From contig SVPE01000012.1 in assembly GCA_015066015.1 (NCBI GenBank), forward strand, positions 1-64,000: a DNA stretch of 64,000 nucleotides, written 5' to 3'. Position numbers and translations under genes: made by a program. Below, in pieces: positions 20,897 through 57,974 of the stretch; position 1 is the stretch's first letter; each line of letters starts with the position of its first letter. Under the pieces are notes generated by a model. That model was not told the DNA's origin, did no database searches, and worked only from the letters and a program-made list of their open reading frames with translations. The stretch comes from Oscillospiraceae bacterium (GTDB taxonomy: Bacteria > Bacillota > Clostridia > Oscillospirales > Acutalibacteraceae).

Positions 20897-20939
20897 TTTG
20901 TGTAAGGCTTTCTGCTGAAGATGAAAGGAAACGGCTGCA

Positions 20940-21101
20940 CGCGGGGAGCGCAGGCGCCCCGCAGGGGCGCCTGCGTCAGAGAGCTATGTTCCAAAATAAA
21001 AAAAGCACCGGACGAAAGCTGTATCCTGTGCGGAAAACGGATATTGTCGGGAGCTCTCTGAGACGCCGGCTTTTCGAAGAAAAGCCGGCGTACTCCCCGC
21101 G
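20940..21101. repeat. Four-way-junction repeat, copy A
   Basis: Gene-free region between convergent ricT and an MFS gene. The outer stem 20940-20948/21093-21101 (9 bp, CGCGGGGAG) encloses three arms almost without unpaired bases. Arm 1 is 20949-20975 (12 bp, CGCAGGCGCCCC, loop GCA). Arm 2 is 20976-21061 (10-bp base TCAGAGAGCT/AGCTCTCTGA). Arm 3 is 21063-21091 (12 bp, ACGCCGGCTTTT). Related copies are at 28369, 43905 and 55780. Its reverse complement aligns with the flank and arm-2 base of copy B. Confidence 0.8.
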
Positions 21102-21122
21102 CTTGTAGGGATAACCCCTTTT

Positions 21123-28368: not shown

Positions 28369-28526
28369 GCGCGGTGAGAAGCAACGCCACAGGCGTTGCT
28401 TCAGAGAGCCCGATGTCGAGGTCGGGTAAATAAAAATTGCAACTTAATGCAGAATGCAGGGTAAAGGAAAGTATGCGGGGCTCTCTGCTTTCCGGCTTTC
28501 GGAGAAGGCCGGAAAGCTCACCGCGC
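28369..28526. repeat. Four-way-junction repeat, copy B
   Basis: This lies between convergent genes. It is a perfect four-way junction with no unpaired base between helices. The outer stem is 28369-28378/28517-28526 (GCGCGGTGAG). Arm 1 is 28379-28401 (10 bp). Arm 2 is 28402-28487, with base CAGAGAGCCC/GGGCTCTCTG. Arm 3 is 28488-28516 (13 bp with one G-U). Arm 2 contains a TAATGCAGAATGCAG stretch that recurs at 45834-45860. See copies at 20940, 43905 and 55780. Confidence 0.85.
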
Positions 28527-43896: not shown

Positions 43897-43904
43897 AAAG
43901 GATT

Positions 43905-44018
43905 ATGGGGAGGCGGAACGCGCTGTGCGCGTTCACACAGAGATAATTCGTTTTTGAAACGGGAAATCGAATTTTCTCTGTGACTCCGGCTTTTTCAAAA
44001 GCCGGAGCGCCTCCCCGT
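43905..44018. repeat. Four-way-junction repeat, copy C
   Basis: This lies between convergent genes. The outer stem is 43905-43915/44008-44018 (core GGGGAGGCG). Arm 1 is 43916-43934 (GAACGCGC, loop TGT). Arm 2 is 43936-43982 (CACAGAGA base, then ATTCG, with apical GAAACGGGAAA). Arm 3 is 43984-44007 (CTCCGGCTTT). At most one unpaired base separates the helices. The apical AACGGGAAA is shared with copy D. Confidence 0.8.
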
Positions 44019-44090
44019 ATGTCCCTTTAAATGAGATGTAAATACAAAAAGGCAGAAGCACAAGCTCCTGCCAGATCCACTTTTCGAATT

Positions 44091-45206
44091 TTATTTGAAA
44101 TACATATAAAGCTGACATTTAATCATACCGTTGTAAAGCTTGCGACGTTTATCAGCTTTTCTGCCGAAGAAAATTTCGAAATCCTCCGAAGGGCAGATTA
44201 CATTATATGCCCAGCCTCTCTGCTGAGTAAATACCTTACCCATTGACTTATAAAGCTCTTCTGCTTCTTTTAGCTCGAGAAGGCGTTCACCGTAGGGCGG
44301 ATTACAGATAACGGTACCCTTTTCACTTTTGGGTGAGAAATTCCTGATATCAGCCTTTTCAAAGGTTATATATTTATCAACACCTGCCCTTTTTGCATTG
44401 GCAAGAGCAACATCAAGGCTCTTTCCGTCGATATCTGAGCCGTAGGCCACAAACTGTGAATCGGTAAGAGCAAGACTTCTGGCTCTGTCTCTTTCCTCGT
44501 TCCACACGCTCTCAGGGATAATATCCCATCTTTCGGCTGTGAAGTGTCTGTTCACACCGGGAGCAATATTGTTTACAAGCATTGCTCCTTCTATAAGGAT
44601 TGTACCACTGCCGCACATCGGGTCATAAAGCGTATGATAGGGTCTGAGTCGAGACAGACAGCAAAGCGATGCCGCAAGAGTTTCCTTGATAGGAGCACCG
44701 TTTGCTTCAAGACGGTAGCCTCTTTTATGAAGTCCGTATCCCGATGTATCAATAAGAAGGCTCACCTTGTCCTTCATAATCGAAAACTGTATCTGATGAA
44801 GTGGGCCGGTTTCCTCAAACCAGGAAATGTTGTATTTTGACTTAAGGCGTTCAACAACTGCTTTTTTTATAATTGACTGACAGTCGCTTACACTGAAAAG
44901 AGTTGAATTCAAGGAATAACCCTTTACGGGAAAAGCATCATATGCACCTATCCATTCTTCCCAGGGAAGTGCCTTTGTGCCCTGAAAAAGCTCCTCAAAG
45001 CTTCTTGCTTCAAAAGAGCCTACAAGAATCTGTATTCTCTCTGCATAACGGCAACAAATATTAGCTCTTGCAAGAATATACTCATCACCCGAGAAAAGAA
45101 CTCTGCCGTTTTCAGAAACAACGTTTTCTGCCCCGAGCTCCTTCAGCTCATCGGCAATAAGCTTTTCAAGTCCGAGAAGGCAGGGAATAACAAAATTTAT
45201 TCTCAT
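44091..45206 (-). CDS. THUMP-domain class I SAM-dependent RNA methyltransferase (RlmL/YpsC-like)
   Basis: A 371-residue enzyme of the RlmL-N/YpsC group. An N-terminal ferredoxin-like and THUMP region (about 1-155, IPCLLGLEKLIADELKEL) precedes a Rossmann methyltransferase. The SAM motif is YDPMCGSGTILIEGAM, and the catalytic motif NPPYGERL is the (N/D)PPY of N6-adenine or guanine-N2 methylases. It probably modifies 23S rRNA. The start at ATG 45206 has GAAAGTGAG upstream; its promoter (45259-45287) overlaps the hpf terminator. Confidence 0.88.
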   Translation of the reverse strand: MRINFVIPCLLGLEKLIADELKELGAENVVSENGRVLFSGDEYILARANICCRYAERIQILVGSFEARSFEELFQGTKALPWEEWIGAYDAFPVKGYSLNSTLFSVSDCQSIIKKAVVERLKSKYNISWFEETGPLHQIQFSIMKDKVSLLIDTSGYGLHKRGYRLEANGAPIKETLAASLCCLSRLRPYHTLYDPMCGSGTILIEGAMLVNNIAPGVNRHFTAERWDIIPESVWNEERDRARSLALTDSQFVAYGSDIDGKSLDVALANAKRAGVDKYITFEKADIRNFSPKSEKGTVICNPPYGERLLELKEAEELYKSMGKVFTQQRGWAYNVICPSEDFEIFFGRKADKRRKLYNGMIKCQLYMYFK

Positions 45207-45232
45207 AAAAAGTCTCACTTTCAATAAAAATC

Positions 45233-55084: not shown

Positions 55085-55702
55085 ATGAAAAAGAATATTT
55101 TTTCTACAAAAGCATTCTGTCTGGGAATACTTATACCCGCCTTTATATATGGTCTTGCACTCCCCTTCTTCTGGGGCAACAACCCTGCTTCGGAGCTTGG
55201 CACGCTGTCACTTTTGTGCGAAGACCCCGACAAGAGGATTTTCTTCTGGCTGTGGGGCATTCTCACCTCGGGAAGTATCATTGCAAACACACAGTATCTC
55301 TACAGACGCTTCAACATCCGAAGCAAGTTTTACAACACACTTTGCGTTCTTGCATTCATAAGTGTCTGTCTTGTGGCTCTGACTCTCGGTCACAGCATAG
55401 CAGACTGGAACCCCAAGAGAATCGCTCACTGGGTTGCAACGGGATTTTTCATCGGATTCACCGTGGCTCCTTTGCTCCTCCCCTTCCTCAGATACAGAAA
55501 GAAGCACAAGCCCTTTTTAGCTTTTGCTGTTTGCACGGTGGGCATACTTATGACCTTCGTTGTTATTTTTGTCGTCGTGGGTAAAAGCTCTCTTATGGAA
55601 ATGATACCTATTGCACTGATTGAGATTTTCCTGTTTATTGTTAATTTTACAAACGTGGTAAAAGGCAGGGAATTAAAAGAAAAAACGGCAAGCAACAAAT
55701 AA
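55085..55702 (+). CDS. Six-span membrane protein of unknown family
   Basis: A 205-residue protein with about six hydrophobic segments (about 8-28, 52-72, 85-105, 118-138, 148-170 and 175-195). There is a charged loop, LGHSIADWNPKRIAHWVA, between segments 3 and 4, and a Lys-rich C-terminus. The spacing looks like a Frag1/DRAM- or DUF998-type topology, but I cannot assign it. Monocistronic, with its own promoter and terminator (55718-55760). Confidence 0.6.
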   Translation: MKKNIFSTKAFCLGILIPAFIYGLALPFFWGNNPASELGTLSLLCEDPDKRIFFWLWGILTSGSIIANTQYLYRRFNIRSKFYNTLCVLAFISVCLVALTLGHSIADWNPKRIAHWVATGFFIGFTVAPLLLPFLRYRKKHKPFLAFAVCTVGILMTFVVIFVVVGKSSLMEMIPIALIEIFLFIVNFTNVVKGRELKEKTASNK

Positions 55703-55717
55703 CACTGAAAAGTCAGC

Positions 55718-55760
55718 AGGTATTTTTACACTTGATGTGGAAATACCTGCTTGTTTTTGA
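55718..55760 (+). terminator. Terminator of the 55085 gene
   Basis: Stem AGCAGGTATTT / AAATACCTGCT around a 14-nt loop, followed by TGTTTTT. Confidence 0.8.
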
Positions 55761-55779: not shown

Positions 55780-55897
55780 CGGCGAGGCGGAACGCACTAA
55801 GGTGCGTTTTCGCCAACAAAAATCGGTTTCGGGAACGGGAAAGCGATTTTTATTGGCGGTCCTGCCTTTTCCGCAGGAAAAGGCAGGCGCCTCGCCG
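55780..55897. repeat. Four-way-junction repeat, copy D
   Basis: This lies between convergent genes, beyond the + strand terminator. The outer stem is 55780-55789/55888-55897 (CGGCGAGGCG). Arm 1 is 55790-55809 (GAACGCAC, loop TAAG, one wobble). Arm 2 is 55811-55858 (CGCCAA, mismatch, AAAAATCG; apical GGAACGGGAAA). Arm 3 is 55861-55887 (12 bp, CCTGCCTTTTCC, loop GCA). Helices are separated by 0-2 bases. Confidence 0.85.
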
Positions 55898-55925: not shown

Positions 55926-55953
55926 AAAAAAGGACACCTTGCGGTGTCCTTAA
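55926..55953 (-). terminator. Terminator of ispH-rpsA cluster
   Basis: Minus strand AAGGACACC / GGTGTCCTT with loop GCAA, followed by TTTTTTATAC. Confidence 0.9.
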
Positions 55954-55958
55954 TTTTA

Positions 55959-57974
55959 TTATTCACCTGCTTCTTCTGCTGCCTCTTCGATAACCTCTTC
56001 AGCAACTTCTTCAGTTGCTTCCTCAACTGCCTCGTCAGCAGCGGGCTCGATGAGTGCGCGGATTGAAAGGCTTACACGCTTCTTATCGAAGTCGATTTCA
56101 GTAATCTTAACTGTAACCTCTTCACCGATGGAAAGAACTTCCTTGGGAGAAGCAATGTGACGGTCAGCAATCTGTGAAATGTGAATAAGACCGTCAATAC
56201 CGTCGATAATTGTTGCAAATGCACCGAATGTTGTAAGACCTACAACCTTGGCTGTTACAACTGAACCTACGGGATAATCTCTCTTGAGGATTTCCCAGGG
56301 ATTGTCTTCGATTCTCTTGTAGCCGAGAGAAATCTTTCTCTTTTCAGCGTCGAGAGCCTTAACAAATACCTTAACGGTATCGCCTACGTTTACAACCTCT
56401 GAGGGGTGCTTGATACGCTTCCAGGAAAGCTCTGAGATATGTACCATACCGTCAACGCCGCCAAGGTCAACAAATGCACCGTAGTTTGTAAGTGACTTAA
56501 CTGTACCTGTGAACTCCTGACCTTCTGCGATGTCTGCCCAGAAAGCTTCTGTTGCAGCCTTACGCTCCTCACGGAGAACAGCACGGATTGAGCCTACAAC
56601 TCTCTTCTTCTGCTCGTCAAGGTCAATAAGTCTGAGCTTAACGGACTGCTTAACAAGCTGTGCAAGGTCTTCGTCCTTTGCAAGGCCTGTCTGTGAAGCG
56701 GGGATGAATACTCTTGCGCCCATGGGGTAGCAGATAACGCCGCCTCTTACTGCTTCTGCAACAACTGCCTCAACGATTTCGTCGTTTTCCTTTGCTGCAA
56801 CAATGTTTGACCATGAAGCTCTTCTGTCGTAAAGACGCTTTGAAAGCTTCATAGTGCCTTCATTATCATTTGTTTTCATGATAATGAGGTTGAGCTCATC
56901 GCCAATCTTAAGCTCCTTTGAAGGATCAGCAGTGGGATCGTTGCTGTATTCTTCAACGGGGATAAAACCGGCATACTTTCTTCCGATGTCAACCTGAATC
57001 TCGTTGGGGGCAATGCCAACAACTATGCCAACGACATTGGGGTTGTCACTTGTATCGTCAATGCTATCAACGGCTGCTAAAAACAGCTCCTGATCCTGCG
57101 TCTCCTTTGTAATTTTTGTGTCATTAAAGTTTTCGGTCATAATGACTTCAACCTCCTTTATTATACGTGCAGGTGTTGACGCACCCGCTGTTATACCAAT
57201 TTTTTCGCTACCCTCCAGATTAAGAGAATAAATTTCCTCAGGTCTTTCAATAAGATACGTTTTACAATTCTTTTCACAGACATTTTTCAGCTTTACCGTA
57301 TTCGAGCTGAAGTGACCGCCGATTACCAACATGACGTCATTTCTCTTGGAAAGAAGCTCTGCTTCGTCCTGTCTGTTTTGGGTAGCTTTACATATTGTAT
57401 CAAATGAAATCGAATTTGTACAGAGTTTTTCGAGAATTTTTCTACATTTTTTCCACTCTTTTACGGAAAAAGTTGTCTGCGCGACAATTATAATTTCTTT
57501 ATTAGAAAAATTATTGTTTTCGTATAAAATTTCAGACAATCTGTTCTCATTCGCAAAGACAAAAGACGCTCCCCTGCAGTGACTTCTGAAGCCGCATACC
57601 TCAGGATGAGACTCATCACCTGCTATAAGCACAATATTGTCCTCACGGGAATTTTCTTTGATTATTTTGTGAATTTTGATTACATAAGGGCAGGTAGCGT
57701 CCGTATAGGGTATACCATTTTCCTCAAGCTCGTTTATAACCTGCTTTGTAACGCCGTGAGCACGGATAACAACCTCATAGCCTTCAGGTGTATCTGACGG
57801 GGAATCTATTATTTTTGCTCCCCTGCTCTCCAGCTCCTCAATAACCTGCGGATTATGTATGATAGGCCCGAGGGTGCAGACAAGTCTGCCCTCATCGAGC
57901 TTTTCTTCAAGTATCTTTACGGCACGGTTTACACCAAAGCAGAAGCCCGCCGTTTTTGCAGTTTCAAATTTCAT
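55959..57974 (-). CDS. ispH-rpsA: Bifunctional IspH reductase / ribosomal protein S1 fusion
   Basis: This 671-residue protein joins two functions. Residues 1-281 are 4-hydroxy-3-methylbut-2-enyl diphosphate reductase (last MEP-pathway step), with cluster cysteines in AGFCFGVNRAV (Cys12), TDATCPYV and FDTICKATQNRQ. Residues about 300-630 hold four S1 RNA-binding domains (the last two start GQEFTGTVKSLTNYGAFVDL and GSVVTAKVVGLTTFGAF), followed by an acidic Glu/Ala tail. The fusion is known in Clostridia. An internal AAGGAGG (57152-57158) sits 11 nt before an in-frame ATG (57140, MTENFND) exactly at the domain border. Confidence 0.95.
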   Translation of the reverse strand: MKFETAKTAGFCFGVNRAVKILEEKLDEGRLVCTLGPIIHNPQVIEELESRGAKIIDSPSDTPEGYEVVIRAHGVTKQVINELEENGIPYTDATCPYVIKIHKIIKENSREDNIVLIAGDESHPEVCGFRSHCRGASFVFANENRLSEILYENNNFSNKEIIIVAQTTFSVKEWKKCRKILEKLCTNSISFDTICKATQNRQDEAELLSKRNDVMLVIGGHFSSNTVKLKNVCEKNCKTYLIERPEEIYSLNLEGSEKIGITAGASTPARIIKEVEVIMTENFNDTKITKETQDQELFLAAVDSIDDTSDNPNVVGIVVGIAPNEIQVDIGRKYAGFIPVEEYSNDPTADPSKELKIGDELNLIIMKTNDNEGTMKLSKRLYDRRASWSNIVAAKENDEIVEAVVAEAVRGGVICYPMGARVFIPASQTGLAKDEDLAQLVKQSVKLRLIDLDEQKKRVVGSIRAVLREERKAATEAFWADIAEGQEFTGTVKSLTNYGAFVDLGGVDGMVHISELSWKRIKHPSEVVNVGDTVKVFVKALDAEKRKISLGYKRIEDNPWEILKRDYPVGSVVTAKVVGLTTFGAFATIIDGIDGLIHISQIADRHIASPKEVLSIGEEVTVKITEIDFDKKRVSLSIRALIEPAADEAVEEATEEVAEEVIEEAAEEAGE
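57138..57158 (-). promoter_or_regulatory. Internal ribosome binding site at the IspH/S1 border
   Basis: Minus strand AAGGAGG, 11 nt, then ATG in frame. Translation from here would give a free S1-type protein of about 393 residues. The site is stronger than that of the full-length start, which lacks a clear GGAGG (AAAGGAGT lies 9-16 nt upstream). Confidence 0.6.

Follow-up and report, generated by a model that had tools for sequence, protein, structure and literature searches.

Intergenic elements that keep a four-way-junction fold while their arm sequences change, placed beside terminator-like hairpins in an Oscillospiraceae bacterium

We analysed a 64,000-nt stretch of contig SVPE01000012.1 from an Oscillospiraceae bacterium, hereafter the window. 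A gene on the plus strand (55085-55702) and the lytB-S1 gene on the minus strand (55959-57974) enclose a gap that holds an element, E4 (55780-55897, plus strand), which folds into a closed four-way junction. Its outer stem of 10 bp pairs 55780-55789 with 55888-55897 and encloses three arms, arm 1 of 8 bp (55790-55809), arm 2 of 19 bp (55810-55859) and arm 3 of 12 bp (55861-55887). E4 is flanked by two converging terminator-like hairpins, that of the plus-strand gene (55715-55751, plus) ending 28 nt before the outer stem and that of lytB-S1 (55930-55951, minus) lying 31 nt from it.

Three further elements in the window, also given on the plus strand, fold in the same way. E3 (43900-44024) has an outer stem that reaches 16 bp if extended and arms of 8, 19 and 10 bp (43916-43934, 43936-43982 and 43984-44007); the terminator-like hairpin of the minus-strand gene 44091-45224 (44051-44072, minus) lies 32 nt away. 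E2 (28369-28526) has an outer stem of 9 bp and arms of 11, 24 and 14 bp, its arm 2 (28403-28486) having a long irregular outer part. E1 (20935-21108) has an outer stem of 14 bp and arms of 12, 28 and 13 bp (20949-20975, 20976-21061 and 21063-21091). E1 and E2 are a longer, more divergent subtype. The repeat word TGCATTCTGCATT lies inside arm 2 of E2 (28446, minus) and gives the impression of a second repeat having inserted there.

All four fold as closed four-way junctions, with energies of -75.5 (E4), -71.5 (E3), -82.2 (E2) and -97.6 kcal/mol (E1), shuffle z scores of -9.8, -10.8, -8.8 and -9.1 in the same order, and no equally stable sequence among 200 shuffles of each. They are also the four most stable 160-nt stretches when the window is folded in 160-nt steps. 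A structure-only scanner finds nine closed three-arm junction folds in the window and only E1-E4 fall below -0.5 kcal/nt. In each of three random sequences drawn from a first-order Markov model it finds three such folds, all far weaker per base. Folding, shuffles and window scan therefore confirm a sequence-only reading that had placed four elements of one closed four-way-junction geometry at these loci. The helix lengths given there stand for the outer stem (9-11 bp), for arm 1 (7-12 bp) and for the 0-2 unpaired bases at the junction, but arm 3 measures 10-14 rather than 10-13 bp, and the outer stem is longer than stated once E1 (14 bp) and E3 (16 bp) are extended.

The same reading had proposed a covariance-model search for further copies, and such copies were found. 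Using E3 as a blastn query against the genome of origin (2.38 Mb) we obtained 35 matches, among which some copies are counted on both strands. From 26 aligned copies we built the covariance model R1, which returned 108 matches at E up to 1 from this genome; they fall on both strands, since reverse complementation leaves the shape almost unchanged. These matches correspond to 59 distinct copies of the junction and a single weak place of 41 nt. E4, E3 and E1 score 92.6, 97.7 and 44.3 bits respectively; E2 is absent from the R1 list and was detected by the structure-only fold scan. The resulting catalogue of 60 copies (the 59 from R1 plus E2) defines family A, E1-E4 and their related copies in this genome, and there are at least 60, R1 having scored 150 of 1497 first-look candidates. 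A structure-only scan of loci from the same genome gave 56 folds in 206 kb, one of them atypical (L081, 1950-2127), and misses a few known copies. A further place, C41:44010, resembles an E1-type copy that has been truncated.

Family A copies have a median length of 120 bp and a GC content of 0.572, compared to 0.425 for the window. The typical outer stem is GCGGGGAGGC, with a length of 8-16 bp across the family. The arms follow the order 7-9, 18-22 and 10-13 bp in 44 of the 60 copies, with ranges over all copies of 5-12, 17-28 and 7-16 bp. Every copy forms the three-branch junction when its ends are picked for best energy, 54 of 60 with 0-2 unpaired junction bases, and three (E1, E2 and C8:38451) carry extra hairpins within a branch. 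Pairwise identity has a median of 0.66. By eye, the arm 2 loop in L047 and L043 looks inverted relative to other copies, as if the arm had been flipped. The copies are unevenly spread over the contigs, C33 (257 kb) holding 14 of the 60 and C5 (185 kb) 11, against one on C16 (143 kb) and two on C18 (137 kb).

The pairing of the stems is kept while their letters change. In an alignment of the 47 best-scoring distinct copies (13 of the 60 fell below the score cut), which was fitted to R1 and is thus biased towards the model, 96.9 % of paired cells are paired. Double changes are seen at 32 of 42 pairs, amounting to 267 cells compared to 59.3 in shuffled alignments (none of 500 as high) and 24-37 with slid partners. 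The sequence-only reading had argued from four copies that stems differ, pairing is kept and the structure is what is conserved, and the larger set upholds this. Its further proposal, that the structure is conserved as cruciform DNA or RNA, can be narrowed. Across the 60 copies 2961 of 3022 pairs are Watson-Crick, and this favours DNA as the folded molecule. G-T makes up the other 61 (2 %), and RNA helices usually drift via G-U. Grouped by position and type, the double changes form 24 classes of transition type and 35 of transversion type, with 135 and 130 cells. This pattern points to DNA pairing or arm-to-arm copying better than to RNA. Taken with the terminators that precede the element on the side of the facing genes, the low G-T share and the near equality of transversion and transition compensations indicate that the folded molecule is likely DNA rather than RNA.

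One alternative is a structured RNA, regulatory or catalytic, built on a four-stem junction. The very stable RNA folds and the covariation would suit it, as would an orientation bias in tandem gaps, where elements opposed to the direction of the genes outnumber the others 25:7 (p = 0.002), and an excess of G-T over A-C of 27:11 (p = 0.014) in a count that is biased by folding one strand. Folding the opposite strand gives 16 G-T and 19 A-C. A strand-symmetric count at Watson-Crick-flanked positions gives 2320 Watson-Crick, 27 G-T, 16 A-C and 20 other pairs, and the 27:16 ratio is not significant (p = 0.13). The RNA alternative is further weakened by the rarity of G-T, by the 23 of 60 copies that lie between converging genes, and by the facing genes, most of which have a terminator of their own before the element. 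In agreement with the earlier statement that no known Rfam-like class fits, the only Rfam match in the window is a tRNA, none falling at the elements, and in L068, which holds two copies and was searched at E up to 5, the elements come nowhere near a gathering score. We consider an RNA role improbable.

A stronger competitor is that these are dead or neutral repeats whose palindromes are perfected by hairpin template switching during replication (quasipalindrome correction), the cross itself being unselected. It would account for two-sided changes that greatly exceed one-sided ones in the 47 copies, for compensations spread over both classes of change as if one arm had been copied onto the other, and for the lack of a significant difference between G-T and A-C when both strands are counted alike. 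It does not predict the 0-2 unpaired junction bases of 54 copies, nor the terminator spacing and the architecture shared with a second family described below. We judge it unlikely, though well ahead of an RNA role.

Fifty-eight of the 60 copies are intergenic and two overlap the end of an ORF called by a crude gene caller. Thirty-two lie in tandem, 23 in convergent and 5 in divergent gaps; compared to the 31 window gaps of at least 60 nt, neither the convergent excess (Fisher p = 0.096) nor the divergent deficit (p = 0.098) is significant. Seventy-eight gene 3' ends face an element, 69 of them at 20-450 nt, and a terminator-like hairpin stands between gene and element in 48 of these 69, compared to 2 of 69 after letter shuffling. 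Under a slightly stricter terminator rule, the distance from terminator to element is 26-40 nt in 26 of 46 cases. Random placement in the same gaps, with 8 nt kept clear and 50 nt reserved for the far terminator, gives an expectation of 7.0 +/- 2.25, and none of 5000 placements reaches the observed 26. The position at gene 3' ends might suggest that the elements are themselves large bidirectional transcription terminators. A T tract follows only 4 of 120 element ends, however, and the 48 genes with a terminator of their own before the element speak against this role as well; we regard it as very improbable.

The same arrangement could reflect a DNA structure that is resident, and now immobile, where transcription units end; its cruciform would serve as a binding platform or topological device, for example for a junction-binding protein. 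The set terminator distance, the strong pairing constraint on otherwise free sequence, a flank motif common to two families and the 23 convergent against only 5 divergent gaps would all be in keeping with it. Against it stand the lack of significance of that skew, a graded similarity between copies that reaches 97 %, the nearest relatives, which have no family A copy by R1, and five comparable sites that have no element. We hold this for the most serious of the rivals, although still unlikely.

The flanks of the elements carry a signal of their own. After 17 of the 120 flanks were dropped for shared 12-mers, the remaining 103 yield the outward-reading motif CCC[GCT]T[TC]A[AC] at a variable offset from the stem, with a log-likelihood of 80.1 compared to 16.6-20.8 for three shuffled sets and an estimated flank share of 0.79. 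Paired flanks outside the outer stem were considered and rejected, since swapped partners pair equally well: 76 of 100 partner swaps were as good for family A and 36 of 100 for the second family, family B. Pairing is slightly above letter-shuffled flanks, where 1 and 3 of 100 shuffles respectively were as good. About a dozen of the young copies, among them those of L037, L042, L045 and L048, are adjoined on one side or the other by another intergenic repeat (TTTATAATCAACCC ... CCGCGACCGCAATTCTGCATTC, about 110 bp), of which neither the opening nor the closing word is present in the window. A candidate protein-coding gene repeated beside copies was rejected, the shared "ORF" cluster consisting of translations of the element and the neighbouring repeat.

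To see how far the family extends we turned to relatives, with one genome per species. No family A copy was found by R1 in 24 congeners, in searches of 23 same-genus and 15 other order genomes, or in G420, G014, G002 and G021. In an order sample of 394 genomes (own genome included) six others matched, all of them with hairpins at the matched places. These searches scored part of the first-look candidates (94, 9 or 150 per genome), and with the own genome as control R1 gave 93 matches from 94 candidates scored and 9 from 9. Weak R1 hits in G007 and G029 were set aside, their folds not being closed three-arm junctions. The copies of family A are species-specific as far as searched. A pattern for the outer stem gave 66 stretches in genome contigs and 8 in viral contigs. 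R1 run on these stretches plus the two weak congener hits returned four matches at E up to 1, and the new ones, L109 (20.5 bits) and L098 (16.5 bits), were not taken as family members. Outer-stem pattern matches in viral contigs were likewise set aside, a good junction being formed by 0 of 122 and 1 of 120 among the matches listed.

Scans by structure alone found no junction in 692 kb of G016 and G007 or in 89 kb of G010, and 236 kb of G017 gave only the known family B copy. The 352 kb of G420 stretches and congener loci gave only a copy in G021, and the 454 kb of G014 stretches and congener loci gave four irregular folds that we take as background. An energy-only filter had passed 17 irregular folds in 567 kb of mostly GC-rich, unrelated DNA; adding a limit on unpaired bases left 4 loose folds in 1.11 Mb.

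For five of the 60 copies (E4, C33:121144, C33:132577, C8:34809 and C8:38451) both flanks were matched within 4 kb in one fetched stretch of a relative. Structure scans of the fetched stretches found no junction at any of these sites, and the intergenic DNA there has diverged so far that no insertion point can be located. The lytB-S1 gene of G420 and G014 is 86 % identical to that of the own genome. The genes flanking E4 lie 2.2 kb apart in G420 and on different contigs in G014, and E4 is no clean empty site in either. In G014, the counterpart of gene 55085-55702 and the lytB-S1 gene each keep a like terminator hairpin with no element after it, which suggests that the terminators flanking E4 are older than E4. 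The lytB-S1 terminator of G014 (L218) is followed by AGTAGTAAGTAGTGAGTAGTAAGTAGTAAGG and then by the next hairpin; AGTAGTAAGTAGTGAGTAGTAAGTAGTAAGG may be a repeat belonging to that genome.

The junction that the structure scan revealed in the congener G021 has no blastn match in the own genome and belongs to family B. Its outer-stem pattern occurs in five copies in G021 and four in G017, with none in the control and none in the other 32 genus genomes (own included); a shorter-stem pattern adds two copies in each, giving 13, all of which fold as four-way junctions. G021 is 6 % contaminated and G017 is 73 % complete. In family B it is the outer stem that varies least. Arm identity has a median of 0.52 compared to 0.48 for shuffled arms, and 0.69 compared to 0.58 for the best pair, the observed values being biased upward because the better of two orientations is taken. 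Short motifs common to some of the arms can be made out by eye, and long and short arms do not keep a fixed order. Of the 26 flanks, 8 have a terminator at 24-37 nt, one has it at 73 nt, and in 17 none is seen within 120 nt. The flank motif of family A, applied unchanged, scores 3.98 on family B compared to 2.09 +/- 0.47 for shuffled flanks (none of 500 as high), 1.88 when read inward and 1.62 beyond 86 element-free terminator-like sites of the window. The enriched motif common to both families is CCCGTTA.

A relaxed family B pattern matches 18 of 34 genus genomes (own included), the folds of matches outside G017 and G021 having been examined in fetched loci only. Looser junction folds with a GCGCCGAC stem at L600:151-261 (G009) and L599:405-503 (G023) are possible decayed members. 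A 110-nt perfect palindrome at L598:967-1076 (G023) lies at a contig end and is probably an assembly end artefact. Across the order a family B pattern matched 5 of 394 genomes and none of the five matches is a junction.

Our preferred explanation, to which we assign a probability of roughly 45 %, is that the family consists of non-autonomous mobile DNA some 120 bp long, or possibly 160-180 bp if the flanks are counted, recognised as a cruciform and placed beside terminators. A putative recombinase or transposase supplied in trans would read the constant base, the flanks and the shape of the cruciform or of a folded single strand, the arm letters not being what it reads, and would insert the element beside terminators without target-site duplication. 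Selection on shape during movement, perhaps aided by hairpin-templated correction, would keep the arms palindromic. This reading draws on the 60 copies in both orientations (36 and 24 on the contigs) with nearest-neighbour identities of 0.58-0.97, on the lack of family A copies in congeners by R1 and of a junction at the five comparable sites, on the terminator spacing (26 of 46 against 7.0) and the flank motif that carries over to family B, and on the family B copies and the DNA-level pairing.

Several observations weigh against mobility. No target-site duplication is seen at any fixed offset: k-mers of 2-8 are not clearly above partner-swapped controls, the best being k = 4 with 4 copies compared to 3, although irregular ends could hide one. 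No partner enzyme was found; Y1 transposases, the single candidate family examined, do not track the elements in the three genomes compared: one partial match in the own genome, two in G021 and none in G017 (at its 73 % completeness). The insertion point is unreadable at the five comparable sites, with E4 not clean. About a dozen young copies have longer flanking repeats in common, so that some of them may have spread inside a larger unit. Mobility alone also leaves the perfect pairing of old copies unexplained.

Known systems offer partial parallels. Integron attC sites are folded DNA recognised by structure with largely free sequence; they are single imperfect hairpins with extrahelical bases and paired R boxes, whereas the present elements are four-way junctions with flanks that pair no better than swapped partners. 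The double-hairpin and GC-cluster elements of organelles are compact palindromic mobile DNA, hairpins rather than the closed four-way junction of these bacterial elements. REP/REPIN elements are mobilised by a RAYT transposase. REPs are 20-40 bp long with GTAG or CGTC tags, and REP/REPIN elements are palindromic and extragenic, may form cruciforms and are thought to move by an enzyme supplied in trans (PMC3733652). Our elements are likewise palindromic and extragenic; they differ in being junctions of about 120 bp and in having the flank motif CCC[GCT]TYA instead of a tag. MITEs and the small pneumococcal repeats BOX, RUP and SPRITE are described as repeats under about 200 bp, intergenic, present in many copies in few species and highly paired with terminal inverted repeats; MITEs are called AT-rich and some of these repeats are enriched at gene 3' ends (PMC10969869, PMC3049150). 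Our elements are similarly short, non-coding and intergenic with terminal inverted repeats (median 120 bp, stem 8-16 bp). They are unlike MITEs in their closed junction with three arms, in being GC-richer than their surroundings, in their fixed terminator spacing and in showing no target-site duplication at fixed offsets. No comparable four-way-junction family is described in the sections considered of the open-licence literature searched, preprints excluded (including PMC2267715 and PMC13155455).

A broader and more tentative hypothesis, to which we give less credence than to mobility of the family itself, is that these elements represent a shape-defined class of mobile or chromosomal DNA: a four-way junction with arms of almost any sequence, an unvarying base and an outward CCCGTTA in the flank, set down some 30 nt past intrinsic terminators by a putative junction-recognising recombinase, different species having families of different sequence built to the same plan.

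Small repeats of bacteria are usually hairpins recognised by sequence. Here the four-way junction persists as a whole while the letters that form it are exchanged, and two sequence versions occupy like places. This suggests small DNA elements of a little-known kind, mobile or structural, whose shape is what is recognised. If true, the family would supply a natural collection of possible in vivo cruciforms, would point to an enzyme that reads the shape of DNA, and would allow ideas on the upkeep of perfect palindromes to be tested.
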